This document shows, piece by piece, positions 5,136 through 16,610 of a DNA stretch of 29,778 nt. A program made the translations under genes and the position numbers. Location: the IMG/VR virus record IMGVR_UViG_3300019776_000297, positions 1-29,778 of that record. One strand, 5' to 3'. Every line of letters begins with the position of its first letter. Positions within the stretch are counted from its first letter, which is position 1. The notes under the pieces were generated by a model, which made no database searches, was not told the DNA's origin, and saw only the letters and a list, made by a program, of their open reading frames with translations. The DNA is from a virus.

Positions 5136-5477
5136 ATGGGAATGATTAAAAAAACAGTCACTGGGATCTCCGAAGATCTTAAACTAGTAAAAAACGGTAA
5201 GCAAGCTCCAAAAGTAGCTGTTGGTGGTACTCAACGTACAAGTTTCAACGGTTCTTCTGACAGTCGTTCTGCAGGTGATGCTGGACCAAACCAAGTACTA
5301 AAGGGTGCATCTGGTTATATTGATCAGGGTGACGTATACATGGGTGATACTAGCTTCAGCCGTGAGTGGACTAAGACTGGAAATCGTGGCGCTATCGAAG
5401 GACAGGCCAAGGTAACTAGTGAAAAAGTTACTGGCGGTATGGGCGGTACATTCTGGAAAGAACCAGAGGGCTTCTAA
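5136..5477 (+). CDS. Small hypothetical virion-region protein
   Basis: 113 residues, hydrophilic and rich in Gly, Ser, Lys and Asp, with no Cys and no recognisable motif. It starts at ATG 13 bases after a strong AAGGAGA site, 23 bases beyond the beta-helix-like gene, and is therefore probably on the same transcript. The C-terminus contains Gly-Gly-Met-Gly-Gly-Thr-Phe-Trp. Its stop overlaps the next start as TAATG. It may be a minor virion or assembly protein, but no function can be read from the sequence. Confidence 0.6.
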   Translation: MGMIKKTVTGISEDLKLVKNGKQAPKVAVGGTQRTSFNGSSDSRSAGDAGPNQVLKGASGYIDQGDVYMGDTSFSREWTKTGNRGAIEGQAKVTSEKVTGGMGGTFWKEPEGF

Positions 5478-9497: not shown

Positions 9498-11621
9498 TTA
9501 TATTTCACAACCGCTAGAGTCACAGAACTTATTAGCATCAGCATTTTCACCTTCATTAGTTAAGCTAGAGAAGTCTAGTGGTAATAAAGTTGATGCATAC
9601 TGCTGTATTTCTTCACGTGAAGCAGCTGTATAAGGCGCTTGTGCATATCCGTGATCAGATAGTGGTAATAAACTAACACCTTTTAGCTTTCTATCAAAAC
9701 AACTTAGAGCACGAGCGATTTGGTCTTTCTCGTCTTGTTTAAAAGTTATAGTTATTGATACTTGATTATCTGCGTAGTATTCTTGTAAGTCACAAGCATT
9801 AGCAAACTGTTCCCATATAGATACATCTTTTTTAGAGATAGTACCGGGAGCATGAAGTACCGGAAAGTAAACTACACTAGTCTTCAATGGGTCAGTAATA
9901 GAAGCTTCTATGCGATAATTAGCAGCACGAAGTATTGGAAGTAGATTAGAAGTATTTGCTACACGTATTAATCTGTAGTAACTTTCAGATTCAGCGTAGT
10001 GTATTCCTGGCAGCGCTCCTGCGACTAGGGATACTGTACCGCTAGGTTTTACGCTAGTTTTCTTGATAGATAGTGGAATACCTAACCATTCGCTGTACTT
10101 CTTATCTAGATAAGAAATATAATCATATGCTTGATCACAAAAATCATCTAGATATTTTTTACGACCAAATTTCAGGATAGCTTCCTGAATCCCGCTTTGA
10201 GAAGTACCAATACGTCTATTACGCTTTATAACATCGTTAGTCTCTCTCCAATGTGTTGGTACTAACGTTACTGTTTTTGCATATAGATATGCAAATTTTA
10301 ATGTACGCTGATAGTCCCAATAGTCATCATGCTTAGCAGGGAAAGTTTCAACTAAACAGCATAGCTCATATGGCTCAAGAGATTGTTCCAGGCAGGGGTT
10401 ACCACCTCTAACTCTTTGATCTTTAAAATCTGCAGGATCTTTCATTCTGCTAAAGGCCTGCATATTTTCTAGCCATGCTAGTCCTGGTTCTCCGTTAGTA
10501 GCAATTTTTTTAGCTATTTCAGTATAGTCCATTCCAACGCGAGCAAAAATAGAATTGTTAGAGGCCCAACGCCAACCACCAAACTTATATGCCCAGTCTT
10601 CGTCTGCATACTTACGAGCAATATAGGCTCTAGAATCCCAGTTTGTGTTATAAGTCTCGTAGTCATCGACATTTACTAGAGCTAGTTCTTGTGGAGCTAA
10701 AGACCCTGTCTCTACTCCGTAGAGCTCCCAGTTCTTCATATTAGCAAACTCTTCATCTTCTGGCTCACCAAAAGCAATCTCAGCCGTGCGACGCACATTT
10801 CCTGCTACTACTATCTTACCAATAATATTCATTATATCAGTAATATCTACGCTTGTAAGTAGTGGATTAGCTGATAGAGCACGCTTTTCTAGAATATCTT
10901 TAATACCATAAAAACCTTGAACTAGAGGTTCGGGTCCAGATGCAACACCACCAAATCCATGAATAGGTTCACCATAAGCACGTACTAAACTAGTATCTGG
11001 TACTATAGGATTAGATCCTTCTTCAAGATAAGAGTCTATAAGGCAAGAGATAAGTTCTACCCAACCTTCACGAGAATCTTCTACCGTAATTACCTCTGGG
11101 TCGCCTTCTGGAATATAAGATGCTACCTTACCAGCTCCTTTGGTATCGAATCCAATACCTACACCAACCATGCTCATATCCATTAGAAATGCGAATGGTT
11201 TTGACATTTCTGCGTCTATATTTTCTGTGGATACAAAACCACAGTTATTTAGGCATGCACCACCTTTTTCGTAAACAAACGGTGTGCCCATCATCCAAAG
11301 CCCGCGACCTGGAGGAGTCCACTTAAATGCTAGTAGACGTTCTGCAGCTTCTTCTGCTAGCTTATGAGCGCGCTTTTCGTTCCAAGTGTGCTCAGAGGTT
11401 ATAGCATGTGTTTTTAGTATAGAAAACATACCTTCTATAACACGAAGTACGCACTCTTGCCAGGTTTCTAGAGTACCATTAGCTTTTTTACGAGAGTATG
11501 TACGATAGTAAGTAAAAGCTGATAGGCCACCATAACCCCAGTTAACTGGTGTATTTAGCAGTCTTTCTCTATAGTCTTTCTTAAATTGAAATTTAATTGG
11601 TAGTTTACCAATAGTTAGCAT
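9498..11621 (-). CDS. nrdJ: Adenosylcobalamin-dependent (class II) ribonucleotide reductase, monomeric
   Basis: 707 residues, close to the roughly 740 of Lactobacillus leichmannii RTPR, and single-chain, so one polypeptide reduces ribonucleotides using coenzyme B12 as radical source. Active-site elements seen: Cys123 in Ala-Cys-Leu-Asn-Asn-Cys-Gly-Phe, and Asn408-Pro-Cys410-Leu-Glu412 with Cys421. The spacing matches RTPR Cys408/Glu410/Cys419, where the middle cysteine carries the thiyl radical. Lys-Pro-Ser-Gly-Thr-Val-Ser-Leu-Val-Ala-Gly forms the phosphate loop. The C-terminal shuttle pair is Cys700-Asp-Ser-Ser-Gly-Cys705. There is no class I small subunit or class III activase in the window, as expected. 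The enzyme works with or without oxygen but needs B12 from the host. Glutaredoxin downstream is the probable reductant. AGGAGAAATAT is the ribosome site. Confidence 0.95.
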   Translation of the reverse strand: MLTIGKLPIKFQFKKDYRERLLNTPVNWGYGGLSAFTYYRTYSRKKANGTLETWQECVLRVIEGMFSILKTHAITSEHTWNEKRAHKLAEEAAERLLAFKWTPPGRGLWMMGTPFVYEKGGACLNNCGFVSTENIDAEMSKPFAFLMDMSMVGVGIGFDTKGAGKVASYIPEGDPEVITVEDSREGWVELISCLIDSYLEEGSNPIVPDTSLVRAYGEPIHGFGGVASGPEPLVQGFYGIKDILEKRALSANPLLTSVDITDIMNIIGKIVVAGNVRRTAEIAFGEPEDEEFANMKNWELYGVETGSLAPQELALVNVDDYETYNTNWDSRAYIARKYADEDWAYKFGGWRWASNNSIFARVGMDYTEIAKKIATNGEPGLAWLENMQAFSRMKDPADFKDQRVRGGNPCLEQSLEPYELCCLVETFPAKHDDYWDYQRTLKFAYLYAKTVTLVPTHWRETNDVIKRNRRIGTSQSGIQEAILKFGRKKYLDDFCDQAYDYISYLDKKYSEWLGIPLSIKKTSVKPSGTVSLVAGALPGIHYAESESYYRLIRVANTSNLLPILRAANYRIEASITDPLKTSVVYFPVLHAPGTISKKDVSIWEQFANACDLQEYYADNQVSITITFKQDEKDQIARALSCFDRKLKGVSLLPLSDHGYAQAPYTAASREEIQQYASTLLPLDFSSLTNEGENADANKFCDSSGCEI

Positions 11622-11660: not shown

Positions 11661-14600
11661 TCAGTTTTGTATAGAGCTTATATTGTTTTCTTTAATAATA
11701 GACACTTTATCAATGAGCGGGTGGGTAAAATCGTGAGATATTAGAAATACATTTAAATCGTTTTCTTTTTGTAGCACTTCTATAAGCTTTTCTTTGCCTT
11801 CATCATCTAACACGCCGGTAATTTCATCAAGAAATAGTAAATTAATTTTACTTCCACCTAGTGTAGATAGTAAGTTCCTAATAGCTAACAAAATAGAAGT
11901 TTGTATTCTACTAAATTCACCACCAGACATTGTTTCTATAGGTGCACTAGCGCCATTATTAATCACATTGATATTAAGCTTTTCTTTATCTAGAGAAAAT
12001 TCTATTTGAAATTGCCCGTCGCTTAATACTGATAAATAATAGTTAATGGTAGCTTCTAGTTCTTTTGTAAGATTTTCTAGTTTAAAAGCTACTATACCAG
12101 AAGGGCTAAAAGCCTTTTTTAACACACCCAGCGCCCTAGATTGTGTCGATTTAACCAGTATATCTGACTTTAGAGCCTCTTGTCTAATTAAAAATTCAGA
12201 TTTTTGCTCTTTTAGAGCATCTACCTTAGCGTTATGCGCACTAACACGCTTATTATGTTCATTGATTTCACGTATAAGCTTATTTTGTGTAGAAATTTCT
12301 GCGGTTAGTTTATGCTTTTGCTCTGTTAAACTAGCATAGTCAGGATAAGTAACTGGTATACTACTATCAATTACTTGTGTTAGCTGCTCAAATCTTTGAA
12401 TTGCTTCTTGATTTATTTTATAAGCTTTTGCAGCTTGCTGACAGTTAGTAAGTTCTTCACTCCATGCCTTAGCTTTGACTAGTGCAGATTCATATTGAGC
12501 TGTTAGTACTGTGATTTTATCTGATAGTTCTTGCTGTATTTTAATAGCGTGCGAGTTATCAATTATTTGACCACAAGCAGGGCAAGTATCATTAACTTTT
12601 ACCGAGGCTATTTCTTTTTTAAGTCTAGCAATTTCGTTTTGAGTCGCAGTTAGATCTAGTTTTAATGTTTGATATTCATTCATATAATTAAAACTAGCTG
12701 GTTCTGGCATAGACATATCAAAATCTAGTTTATTGCGCTCGGCTATGTACAAGTTATTTCTATCTATACGCTTACAAGTCTCATTTATACTTGATAATGA
12801 CTGTTCTACAGTAGCTAACTGCACTGCAAGAGTAGAATCAGCCTCAATTTCAGTTTTATACTGCATATATTCTGGAATAGTAGTAGAGTTTAAAAAGTCT
12901 TCAATAGACTTTAGCTCTCCTTGCAGTTTTACAGCATCTCTATCTACTTCACTGGCTTTAAGTTTTATGCTCTCTCCAATTACTAGATACTTTTCTAAAT
13001 TAAACAAGTTAATTAAAAACTTTTTACGGTTTGTATCAGTAGCTTTTAGAAAATCTAATAAATCTGTAGATGACTGATAAGTAATTGGTGAGAAAATGTC
13101 AAATTCTAAGCCTAGTATATCTTGTAGTTTTTTGTATGTATCAACTACTTTATGTTCAGATATATCAACGCCATTCTGTTTAAGCACTACTTTAGTAGAC
13201 GCGCCAGTTCTAGTTACGCTTATTACGTAGTCTGTTCCATCAACACTAAAGTCTAAACTACCGCTCCAACTCTTATCTGTGCTATATCTATTTAAAATAT
13301 CGCCTTTTTTAATACCTTTTACATTTTTTGAAAATAGTAGTTCTTGTAGTATTAAGGCTATAGACGACTTACCGCTATTATGTACTAGAGTATCTCCAGC
13401 AATAAAGTTACCTGTAGTAGTTTCTATGTCATAAACTGGCTGTTCGTACATAGGTGTAATAGCTTTAATTCGTAGATGTCTACTAGTTGCGTTATTACTT
13501 AGGCTAGTAATATACCCGCTATCCAATAAAATATTATAGTTTGCTCTAGTTATACCGTGTTTAGAGATACTAAAGCTTTGATATGCTTTTTTGCTATCTG
13601 CAGAGAGATGAGGATTATTGATAGTATCTTTACTACGTAAACTTTTTATATATTTAATAGGTACTAAATCTTGTGTATATGAAGCACTAGTACTATTTTT
13701 AGCTAGTAGTCTTTCTACTTTTTCTTTTTTGTAACCAACTATATAAGGTAGTACCTTAGAAGCAAGTACTTTGCAGTAATCCAATCTAGTGATATATATC
13801 TCCATATTGTCACAATGCGTAGTTTTTCTAATTCTAGAAGAGCATTGTAGTTTATATCTGTATCGTAATAGATGTAATAGTTGATGCCCTAATTTAATTG
13901 AACTAGTACTAAAAGAAATTATATTACGTTGATCAATACTACCATCTGTTTCAAGATATATAGCGAGTATTTTATTAAGTAGCTCGTCTGGTAACGAAAA
14001 TATACTAGCAGGAAAACATTTCTGAGTAGCGTATCCACGTATTTCTGGCACTATTAAGCTATCTATAAAACTTTGTTTCAAAGCAGAATCTCTATCAAAC
14101 AATATTGCTAGGTCTGTACTATCATCACTATATACAGATAATCTAGAGTTTATAGCTTTTAGTTTTTTTACAAACTTGATTTTAATATCTTCATCTTGAT
14201 TTGAAAACGTAATTTTATTAGCATAGTTAGATAAGCCACCCTCAGTTATTAAATAAGTTAATAACTCCCACCACTCATCTGAGTAGTTATTATATGTAGG
14301 GGTATATTCTCTATCTCTTGAATCCACAACCCAGTCATTAACCTTTAACTCTTTTAAAGGCTTCCACCCATTTATTGTTTTTAATAAATGGTTATCAGTA
14401 ATAAACAATAGATTACCGTTATCAAATTGCACTCTGTATATTAATTTGGGCTCGTGTTTAAACCAATTAGTTACCGTAGCGACGCAGGAATTATTATTTT
14501 CATCTACACCTAATACGTCCAATGTTAGTTTATTATCTACGATTTCCGCAATCGTATAGGCAGCCCCATTTGATGCTATAATAACGGAGTTACCGGCTAA

Positions 14601-14717
14601 GCAACCGTTTACCGCAGTAAGCTGTGTAATACGATTCTTATCAAGAGATATTGTGTTGCTTGCGCCATAGCTAAACATATTAGAAAAGCTAAGTTGTTTT
14701 AATGTTATGTTGCTCAT
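11661..14717 (-). CDS. sbcC: SbcC/Rad50-type ATPase (T4 gp46/T5 D13-like) interrupted by an intein
   Basis: 1018 codons, of which 609 belong to the mature protein and 409 to an intein. With SbcD this ATPase forms a nuclease complex that opens hairpins and processes DNA ends. The Walker A motif is split: Ala-Val-Asn-Gly38, then the intein, then Ser448-Gly-Lys-Ser-Ser. Long coiled-coil regions flank a zinc hook Cys712-Pro-Ala-Cys715, close to the centre of the mature protein. The C-terminal lobe has the signature Met-Ser931-Gly-Gly-Glu-Phe-Ser-Arg, Walker B ending Leu-Leu-Phe-Leu-Asp964-Glu965, the D-loop Gly-Val-Leu-Asp-Asp, and the H-loop His995. The mature size fits phage gp46-type proteins. 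The start overlaps the sbcD stop (ATGA). Unspliced precursor should be inactive because the phosphate-binding loop is broken. Confidence 0.95.
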   Translation of the reverse strand: MSNITLKQLSFSNMFSYGASNTISLDKNRITQLTAVNGCLAGNSVIIASNGAAYTIAEIVDNKLTLDVLGVDENNNSCVATVTNWFKHEPKLIYRVQFDNGNLLFITDNHLLKTINGWKPLKELKVNDWVVDSRDREYTPTYNNYSDEWWELLTYLITEGGLSNYANKITFSNQDEDIKIKFVKKLKAINSRLSVYSDDSTDLAILFDRDSALKQSFIDSLIVPEIRGYATQKCFPASIFSLPDELLNKILAIYLETDGSIDQRNIISFSTSSIKLGHQLLHLLRYRYKLQCSSRIRKTTHCDNMEIYITRLDYCKVLASKVLPYIVGYKKEKVERLLAKNSTSASYTQDLVPIKYIKSLRSKDTINNPHLSADSKKAYQSFSISKHGITRANYNILLDSGYITSLSNNATSRHLRIKAITPMYEQPVYDIETTTGNFIAGDTLVHNSGKSSIALILQELLFSKNVKGIKKGDILNRYSTDKSWSGSLDFSVDGTDYVISVTRTGASTKVVLKQNGVDISEHKVVDTYKKLQDILGLEFDIFSPITYQSSTDLLDFLKATDTNRKKFLINLFNLEKYLVIGESIKLKASEVDRDAVKLQGELKSIEDFLNSTTIPEYMQYKTEIEADSTLAVQLATVEQSLSSINETCKRIDRNNLYIAERNKLDFDMSMPEPASFNYMNEYQTLKLDLTATQNEIARLKKEIASVKVNDTCPACGQIIDNSHAIKIQQELSDKITVLTAQYESALVKAKAWSEELTNCQQAAKAYKINQEAIQRFEQLTQVIDSSIPVTYPDYASLTEQKHKLTAEISTQNKLIREINEHNKRVSAHNAKVDALKEQKSEFLIRQEALKSDILVKSTQSRALGVLKKAFSPSGIVAFKLENLTKELEATINYYLSVLSDGQFQIEFSLDKEKLNINVINNGASAPIETMSGGEFSRIQTSILLAIRNLLSTLGGSKINLLFLDEITGVLDDEGKEKLIEVLQKENDLNVFLISHDFTHPLIDKVSIIKENNISSIQN
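13377..14603 (-). mobile_element. LAGLIDADG-type intein in the SbcC Walker A motif
   Basis: Residues 39-447 of the sbcC product, in frame. It starts with Cys1 (Cys-Leu-Ala-Gly-Asn-Ser, block A). Block B has Thr69-Asp-Asn-His72. The C-terminal blocks read Val-Tyr-Asp-Ile-Glu-Thr-Thr-Thr-Gly-Asn-Phe-Ile-Ala-Gly (F) and Leu-Val-His408-Asn409 (G), followed by Ser as the +1 nucleophile. All residues needed for splicing are present. The middle carries two dodecapeptide motifs of a homing endonuclease: Leu-Leu-Thr-Tyr-Leu-Ile-Thr-Glu121-Gly-Gly (about 114-123) and Ile-Leu-Ala-Ile-Tyr-Leu-Glu-Thr-Asp220-Gly (212-221). Both keep an acidic metal ligand, so the nuclease may be active. At 409 residues it is a normal length for a full intein. 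Splicing would join Gly38 to Ser448 and restore Asn-Gly-Ser-Gly-Lys-Ser. Confidence 0.93.
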
Positions 14718-15676
14718 TGTATTCCTAACTTTCTATATTCGTCTAACACGCTCGGCTTCTCCGCTATCTTGATATAGTCTAGATAGATTTCCAGTTCTTC
14801 AATTACAGTCTTGTCTTTTAAGTCAAGCACTGAATCTCCTGTAGGCTTATCTACCATCTTTTTATCTAGTAGTTCAGTTTTTTCAATCTTAGCTAGTTGA
14901 TCTATAGTTCCAGTAACTTCATATACAACATGATGATAGCTATCAGCAACCATTTTAGTACCAACAGGTACTGTACGACGAATTAGCTTAGGTAAATTTA
15001 AATTATAAAAGTCTACACTATAATCATCTAGTGAACGTAGTGTTATAATATCAACTCCATAATCGCGTTTATCATCACGATCAAAAGTAGTATTTAGCGG
15101 CGACCCAGGGTAGTACACATTATAATCACGATAGCGATGACGAAAGTGTAAATCACCTAATAATGTAAGTTTCCAAGGACGAATCTTTTCAAAATCATAC
15201 TCGGCAGTAATATGTGGAGGCACTTCTCCTCTAATGTGTGTAACTAGTATTGCATCTTCATAATAGTCAGGCAGGTTATCTGTTTGTACGCTGCCATACG
15301 GAAAAAAGCAAAAACGTTGTCCGGCGTGTACCGCGTTAGTATTCTCTGTATAGATATGAACATTTGGGTTATTAATTGTATTTTCTAACTTAAAATGCTC
15401 CCAAAATGTTTTACCTCGACTAGTAGCTTCGTGATTGCCAGGAATTATCAGTGTTGGGATTTGCACAGTGTTTAAGTAGGAAAGAACAAGACAGATTTCA
15501 TCTGCTTCTGGTTCTTTATCAAAAAGATCACCTGCAATAACATGAACATCACACCGCTGTTCAATATCACGAAAATGATCAAACATCATTTGAAAACGTT
15601 TTAGCTGCCATAGATATGGTATCTTTTTACGATGAAGATTAACATGCCAGTCAGCTGAACTAAGAATTTTAATCAA
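14714..15676 (-). CDS. sbcD: SbcD/Mre11-type nuclease (T4 gp47/T5 D12-like)
   Basis: 320 residues with the metallophosphoesterase motifs in order: Ala-Asp9-Trp-His11 (I), Ala-Gly-Asp-Leu-Phe-Asp (II), Pro-Gly-Asn-His-Glu (III), Val-Thr-His-Ile-Arg-Gly (IV) and Gly-Asp-Leu-His-Phe-Arg-His with Gly-Ser-Pro-Leu (V). It is the two-metal nuclease subunit partnering SbcC. Motif I lies right at the N-terminus and an in-frame stop occurs six codons before the start. Translation must therefore begin at the TTG at 15674-15676, which has GAGAG nine bases upstream. No ATG can give an intact motif I. The weak start may limit expression. The stop overlaps the sbcC start (ATGA), tying the two subunits' synthesis together. 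Upstream is the unusual 238-base structured region. Confidence 0.95.
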   Translation of the reverse strand: MIKILSSADWHVNLHRKKIPYLWQLKRFQMMFDHFRDIEQRCDVHVIAGDLFDKEPEADEICLVLSYLNTVQIPTLIIPGNHEATSRGKTFWEHFKLENTINNPNVHIYTENTNAVHAGQRFCFFPYGSVQTDNLPDYYEDAILVTHIRGEVPPHITAEYDFEKIRPWKLTLLGDLHFRHRYRDYNVYYPGSPLNTTFDRDDKRDYGVDIITLRSLDDYSVDFYNLNLPKLIRRTVPVGTKMVADSYHHVVYEVTGTIDQLAKIEKTELLDKKMVDKPTGDSVLDLKDKTVIEELEIYLDYIKIAEKPSVLDEYRKLGIQ

Positions 15677-15914
15677 GCAATTGGACTCTCTTTATTATTT
15701 GTGCTAATATTTATTCAGAACATGTATAACGCTATTGAACTGCGCTCGCACACTGTGTCGCAGCTATTTCATAACGCTACAAAATTTTTGTATAAGCCTT
15801 CAATAGCATTATACTAGCGCTGTAACGAAGTTACATATTGTTAGTGGGCGCTCGTGTGCCTGCTAATTGCACTAGTGGCACGGAGTGCCAAAGGCGGGGA
15901 CTGCTCCCCGCCTT
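15677..15914. other. Repeat-rich, structured non-coding segment (candidate origin, leader or small-RNA locus)
   Basis: The longest non-coding gap in the leftward block, and partly GC-rich in an AT-rich genome. It holds a 16-base inverted repeat matching at 15 positions (15724-15739 and 15799-15814). The 9-mer ATAACGCTA occurs twice directly (15726, 15771) and once inverted with one change (15804-15812). GCGCTCG occurs twice (15742, 15848). Hairpins are TACAAAA-T-TTTTGTA (15778-15792), TGTAAC-GAA-GTTACA (15821-15835) and TGGCAC-GGA-GTGCCA (15876-15890). A minus-strand TATAAT at 15808-15813 could start the sbcDC transcript. The mixture suggests a regulatory or replication-initiation site; the sequence alone does not decide which. 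Confidence 0.5.
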
Positions 15915-15924
15915 TTATTTTTTC
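15681..15924 (+). ncRNA. Candidate plus-strand small RNA
   Basis: An extended -10 element TGCTAATAT (15702-15710) with a weak -35 TTGGAC (15681-15686, 18-base spacer) points rightward, against all surrounding genes. About 190 bases on is a strong terminator with its U-tract on the plus strand. The predicted transcript (about 15717-15918) would fold into several of the hairpins listed for this region. It also contains a 31-codon frame without a ribosome site. The -35 is poor and there is no expression evidence, so this remains a candidate. Confidence 0.3.
15893..15924. terminator. Strong GC hairpin terminator after the methyltransferase gene
   Basis: Stem GGCGGGG (15893-15899), a six-base loop, and stem CCCCGCC (15906-15912). 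The plus strand continues TTTTATTTTTTC, a proper U-tract; the minus strand continues only TTTGGC. It closes the methyltransferase gene on the minus strand, but by tract quality it is better as a rightward terminator. Confidence 0.75.
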
Positions 15925-16610
15925 TTAAATAGTAGATAATAGTTCCAGTCTAGTAAATGACCTTCAGGTACTGTAGATTCACTACTGAGTCTCTGTGTAC
16001 GTATAGGTACATGTTGTGCCCAAGAATCATACATCTGAATTAGTTCAAAGCTTTCTTGCTGCATAAACTTTAATAGATTATCAAAGTCAAACAATCCTGG
16101 GTAAAAGAACTGATGTTTCATACGCCAATTAGGTGATGATATGAAAAAATAAGAATTATCTGTTGTTAGTTCGTCTCTAACTTTTTCTAGAATCAAACTA
16201 GGATTTCTAATATGTTCTAAAAAGTCATTAGCTACTACTAACTCAAAGTCGCTATCTAAACCTGTAGTATCAAAGTTATCAAATAGATCTTGTACTAGCA
16301 AAGTACCACTATAGCCTCTACGTTGTTTCGCACGGAGTGCGCTAGGGCCGTCTATCATTGTATAACTTACATTAGTAGCTTTAATTACTTTATCAGCTAA
16401 GTTACCAGGTCCAGAGCCTAGTTCTAGTATTTTAGTGACTTCAGTTTTCTGTATTATATCAGTTAATACTCTAGCTTCCCAGGTATGCCTAGACTCCCAC
16501 CCACCTGGGTCATCAAGGTCATAGTCTGAATCCCAATAAGTATCAATAGAATCATTTCTACCTTTACCAGCATGGTTTTTAAAATATACTTCTTCTGGAA
16601 ATCTATACAC
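15915..16610 (-). CDS. Class I SAM-dependent methyltransferase
   Basis: 231 residues. The AdoMet-binding motif Ile-Leu-Glu63-Leu-Gly-Ser-Gly-Pro-Gly69 follows a 60-residue N-terminal part. An acidic Met-Ile-Asp-Gly segment forms the end of strand 2. Val-Val-Ala-Asn-Asp-Phe-Leu-Glu-His-Ile is the motif IV/post-I region typical of Methyltransf_23/UbiG-like enzymes. Asn-Pro-Pro-Tyr or Pro-Cys DNA/RNA-base methylase motifs are absent, so small-molecule, sugar or protein methylation is more likely than classical DNA methylation. The start is a GTG directly abutting the glycosyltransferase stop (TAAGTG), with AGGA upstream, so the two are translationally linked and may act on the same substrate. 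A strong hairpin follows the stop. Confidence 0.8.
   Translation of the reverse strand: MYRFPEEVYFKNHAGKGRNDSIDTYWDSDYDLDDPGGWESRHTWEARVLTDIIQKTEVTKILELGSGPGNLADKVIKATNVSYTMIDGPSALRAKQRRGYSGTLLVQDLFDNFDTTGLDSDFELVVANDFLEHIRNPSLILEKVRDELTTDNSYFFISSPNWRMKHQFFYPGLFDFDNLLKFMQQESFELIQMYDSWAQHVPIRTQRLSSESTVPEGHLLDWNYYLLFKKK

Follow-up and report, generated by a model that had tools for sequence, protein, structure and literature searches.

A class 1 intein with LAGLIDADG-type endonuclease motifs in the Walker A motif of a phage SbcC-like ATPase

Here, we propose that the window (the whole 29,778-nucleotide stretch of viral DNA analysed) carries a class 1 intein with an embedded LAGLIDADG homing endonuclease in the Walker A motif of a phage SbcC (T5 D13-like) ATPase. 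We hold this reading with high confidence, with splicing, cleavage and selfish upkeep as its predicted activities. The element is most likely a selfish one that would have to splice before the ATPase could work. The features on which the proposal draws are as follows.

11661..14717 (-): SbcC/D13-like ATPase gene including the intein in frame, 1018 aa (open reading frame; phrog_77 SbcC-like, E 8.7e-86; Rad50_zn_hook, SbcC_Walker_B)
14604..14717 (-): N-extein, 38 aa, ending ...LTAVNG, the first half of Walker A (sequence, alignment)
13377..14603 (-): intein, 409 aa, Cys1 to His408-Asn409 (PF14890, TIGR01445, empty homologues)
14388..14399 (-): block B of the splicing domain, T69-D-N-H72 (motif position and residues)
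14232..14261 (-): first LAGLIDADG-type motif, LLTYLITEGG, acidic residue E121 (sequence)
13938..13970 (-): second LAGLIDADG-type motif, ILAIYLETDGS, acidic residue D220 (LAGLIDADG_3 match, intein residues 211-274)
13377..13436 (-): blocks F/G, the C-terminal splice region, VYDIETTTGNFIAGDTLVHN (sequence)
11661..13376 (-): C-extein, starting SGKSSIAL, which completes Walker A; contains the zinc hook CPACG and the Walker B motif LLFLDE (sequence, Pfam)
14714..15676 (-): SbcD-like nuclease gene, the SbcC partner, with a 4-base overlap with sbcC (phrog_100, E 3.5e-25; Metallophos, E 1e-9)

The intein and its host gene

The insert makes up residues 39-447 of the 1018-residue product (window 14603-13377) and is in frame; it opens with CLAGNS and finishes with LVHN, after which the host resumes with SGKSS. 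Scanned alone, it matches the Pfam Intein_splicing family (PF14890) over insert residues 7-409 (E 3e-16, 60.0 bits against a cut-off of 35.8) and NCBIfam TIGR01445 (intein_Nterm; 30.6 bits against a cut-off of 24.5). Position 1, which in class 1 inteins is Cys, Ser or Thr, is Cys1; block B has the TxxH form; and the C-terminal His408-Asn409 pair is followed by Ser+1, one of the three residues (Ser, Thr or Cys) expected there. Block F has a Gly where His is usual (TTTGNF, against PHNF in Ssp DnaB), a substitution that does not exclude splicing. Among curated sequences, the intein best matches those of Ssp DnaB and mycobacterial DnaB/RecA (1mi8, 2imz; NCBIfam PRK07773), which have the same splicing blocks and also sit in replication or recombination ATPases. 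The N-terminal half of the intein matches the solved structures of Ssp DnaB (1mi8, E 6e-6) and Mtu RecA (2imz), although these come from other host proteins and the match does not extend beyond the splicing domain (residues 1-99). When the bases of the insert were shuffled 20,000 times, the frame never stayed open over all 409 codons. The GC contents of intein (0.315) and extein (0.327) are alike, and an AlphaFold model of the intein alone, built without an alignment, had a mean pLDDT of 36, too low for any fold to be read.

Within the insert are two dodecapeptide motifs, 99 residues apart by their acidic residues, E121 and D220, both of which are kept. When the insert was scanned alone, the second motif matched LAGLIDADG_3 with 24.5 bits against a cut-off of 22.5; this is the one Pfam LAGLIDADG match above threshold and it falls in the second half of the domain.

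The exteins, of 38 and 571 residues, give a joined host of 609 residues that matches phrog_77 (SbcC-like) in one unbroken stretch over residues 1-607 (E 3.9e-95), joining of the flanks having raised the score from 290 to 321 bits. In the joined host, Rad50_zn_hook (E 1.2e-4) and SbcC_Walker_B (E 4.4e-4) both score somewhat under their Pfam cut-offs. The whole-length profile match, the zinc hook, the Walker B motif and the SbcD neighbour together identify the host as a member of the SbcC/D13 family (phrog_77), to which T5 D13, T4 gp46 and SbcC belong; those proteins likewise stand beside SbcD but have no insertion. A match start at profile position 331 was considered as a sign of intein-bearing family members and set aside, as the joined host is contiguous from position 293.

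These results bear out most of an earlier sequence-only reading, which had described a complete intein in a phage SbcC homologue: its boundaries (13377-14603) are exact, as are the 409-residue length, the Cys start and the His-Asn end before Ser; completeness is borne out by the two profile matches above cut-off and the splice-site residues, the homing-endonuclease motifs have kept their acidic residues, and the phrog_77 match agrees with the host assignment. Its estimates of roughly 70 kDa for the spliced protein and 47 kDa for the intein are close to the predicted 68.2 and 46.6 kDa. One point is amended. Walker A is indeed split between Gly and Ser (NG, then SGKS), but Ala takes the place of the first Gly of GxxxxGKS, both here and in all near relatives, the motif of the host family being A-x-N-G-S-G-K-S.

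In the surrounding DNA, the gene order GT-sbcD-sbcC-rnr is conserved in the four nearest relatives. The replication genes of the window are closest to those of T5-like phages: its DNA polymerase is 41% identical to those of T5-like Proteus and Providencia phages, and its SbcC about 34% identical to that of T5-like Vibrio phages. Between the GT gene and sbcD lies a methyltransferase-like gene (window 15915-16610, minus strand), a place where there are just some 255 bases in four close relatives; it has a relative in one fetched locus only (L046, 46% identity) and looks like a recent gain here or a loss elsewhere. The intergenic stretch between it and sbcD (window 15690-15915) contains short, repeated-looking, GC-richer stretches.

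Uninterrupted alleles

A tblastn search with the joined host found the site uninterrupted in 85 viral homologous loci, more than 50 of them at 48% identity or above. The loci searched came from a first scan, which gave five close homologues (56-72% identity), and from an alignment-based scan, which gave 80 more; L007, which is the window itself, is left out of the count, and L006 is without the region. Their Walker A motif is unbroken, mostly N-G-S-G-K-S. The joined window protein aligns with the nearest five without a gap across the junction AxNG/SGKSS. Thus, the empty alleles rejoin exactly at Gly/Ser, the outcome on which the sequence-only reading had staked its claim. Since the flanks align gap-free to empty homologues and the profile score rises as one match, we regard this as a clean insertion. 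Its presence is patchy, the window's intein being the only one among the homologues retrieved by ancestry.

The nearest SbcC homologues are 71-72% identical to the joined host. Between the window and its sisters, identity is 71-72% for the SbcC exteins, 85-89% for SbcD and 90-92% for RNR. We considered the divergence of the SbcC exteins as a sign of recombination and rejected it, because SbcC evolves faster throughout the group (L001 against L003: SbcC 80%, SbcD 90%). DNA identity in 60-base steps on both sides of the site showed no local spike towards any relative that would indicate co-conversion.

Other inteins at P-loops

No close relative of the intein was found at E 1e-5 in phage and plasmid records or by a motif scan of viral and genome contigs. 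When the threshold was relaxed to E 10, only weak matches came up in the phage collection, one of them in a terminase and many in helicases. A search with a C-junction pattern specific to the family gave no second copy; the junction match in LR756500.1 was discarded as a different intein-like end in another gene.

Viral contigs were scanned for V-H-N-S-G-K-S, with four combinations of codons, and of the 151 stretches returned many are P-loop inteins that lie in frame in a variety of proteins. Four distinct SbcC/Rad50-like hosts have an intein directly before SGKS.

L096 (+), match 10666-10685: SbcC/Rad50-like host, mini-intein of about 151 aa
L187 (-), 5 kb locus, match 1757-1777: SbcC/Rad50-like host, HNH_3-type insert just under the Pfam cut-off
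L189 (-), match 665-685: SbcC/Rad50-like host, HNH_3-type insert just under the Pfam cut-off
L137 (+), match 5182-5201, with L147 (+), match 120-139, as part of the same case: GETD/SGKS, HNH-like by eye

These hosts were assigned from AAA_23 or SMC_N matches and from C-P-x-C hooks visible in the sequence; in the case of L187, where Pfam gave no SbcC family, the call was made from the sequence itself. The four inteins share with the window's a host type, the site directly before SGKS, Cys1 and a VHN end, but they are a mini-intein (L096) and HNH-type elements (L187, L189 and L137), whereas the window's is of the LAGLIDADG type, and there is little sequence similarity. L137 splits GETD/SGKS, unlike the NG/SGKS split here. 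The inteins of L096, L187 and L189 have a common start (CLxGxT...PRDL) which that of the window lacks, and the best match between the latter and the other SbcC-like inteins has an E of 0.01. Because the window's intein is not close in sequence to the others, inteins have apparently entered the SbcC/Rad50 P-loop site on more than one occasion, which we offer as a lead and not as proof. In the pattern scan of genome contigs, the P-loop inteins among the matches listed had hosts that did not resemble SbcC.

Inteins are very common at the SGKS step of P-loops. In viral contigs (e.g. L099, L127, L133 and L196), many in-frame inteins ending VHN/SGKS lie in different ATPases, among them RecA-like, terminase-like and helicase-like ones. 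In lambdoid phages of Klebsiella and E. coli (L089:782-3688 (+) and L090:1790-4183 (+)), inteins that follow the P-loop GK and have Ala as their first residue are class 3-like, have no Cys1 and lie in helicase-type genes annotated only as hypothetical proteins. P-loop inteins are also known in phage large terminases, namely TerL1-a/-b of mycobacteriophages (PMC5050341) and those of phages Rak2 and K64-1 (PMC5259590). As with the window's intein, TerL1-a/-b interrupt the Walker A motif of a phage ATPase and many have a homing endonuclease; in contrast, the TerL1-a host is a terminase split at Lys/Thr, and ours is an SbcC split at Gly/Ser. In the open literature searched, no SbcC, Rad50 or gp46 intein is described, and within that literature the gap suspected in the sequence-only reading holds.

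Splicing, homing and alternative explanations

In light of this anatomy, how might the element work and persist? Cys1 and Ser+1 would carry out autocatalytic class 1 splicing after translation, His408-Asn409 would cyclise, and the 38- and 571-residue exteins would join, restoring AVNGSGKSS. In the unspliced protein the P-loop is split by 409 residues; a P-loop intein in Pyrococcus horikoshii RadA disrupts ATPase function (PMC6195587), and on the strength of this anatomy and precedent it is reasonable to expect that unspliced SbcC is unlikely to bind nucleotide. In a co-infected cell, the endonuclease may cleave the P-loop codons of sbcC alleles that lack the intein, and the element would spread when the break is repaired from the occupied copy. 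Mobility is suggested by the motifs and by the patchy distribution, no other copy having been found. Persistence is usually explained by insertion in a vital motif, where only exact loss restores the gene, an argument made for introns and inteins (PMC2988022); the intein would likewise be kept in place because only exact loss would restore an active ATPase.

Other explanations account less well for the element. Conditional splicing, governed by redox, metal or infection stage, would make it a post-translational switch for SbcCD end processing, akin to the timing or stress switch of the sequence-only reading, which is speculation. The catalytic Cys1 and the P-loop location are in keeping with such a switch, and conditional splicing has precedents in the P-loop inteins of mycobacterial DnaB and P. 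horikoshii RadA (PMC6195587, PMC5790916). However, the sequence gives no sign of condition dependence, any benefit is not general given the more than 50 close relatives without the intein, and one isolated occurrence better fits a transient selfish invader; we therefore judge the switch decidedly improbable.

A decayed intein, with splicing alive and the endonuclease dead, or with both dead and the sbcC allele inactive, is an unlikely reading that draws on the lone above-threshold Pfam LAGLIDADG match; against it, all 409 codons are open, the acidic and splice-site residues are kept, and both exteins, with their zinc hook and Walker B, are well conserved. That intein sequence was wrongly joined to an sbcC fragment during assembly is scarcely credible: one contig only carries the intein, but the two junctions are in frame and coincide to the residue with Cys1 and Asn409/Ser+1, and the flanks are parts of a single SbcC gene that lies in conserved synteny.

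Returning to the selfish intein, T4 gp46/gp47, relatives of SbcCD, are listed as possible homing participants (PMC2988022), and therefore the host SbcC may belong to the pathway that spreads its intein. We see only a small chance that a broader proposal is correct, in which the SbcC/Rad50 P-loop is recurrently and independently invaded by LAGLIDADG, HNH and mini inteins and splicing is tied to repair activity on which the intein depends, since the processing of the double-strand breaks used for homing may fall to SbcCD-type complexes.

Thus, a phage SbcC/Rad50 ATPase joins the known hosts of P-loop inteins and, together with four other contigs, shows dissimilar inteins occupying the same short piece of Walker A (SGKS). 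The predicted endonuclease would have a new LAGLIDADG specificity, directed at conserved P-loop sequence, and the element is a test case for a host protein that may itself take part in the end processing on which homing draws.
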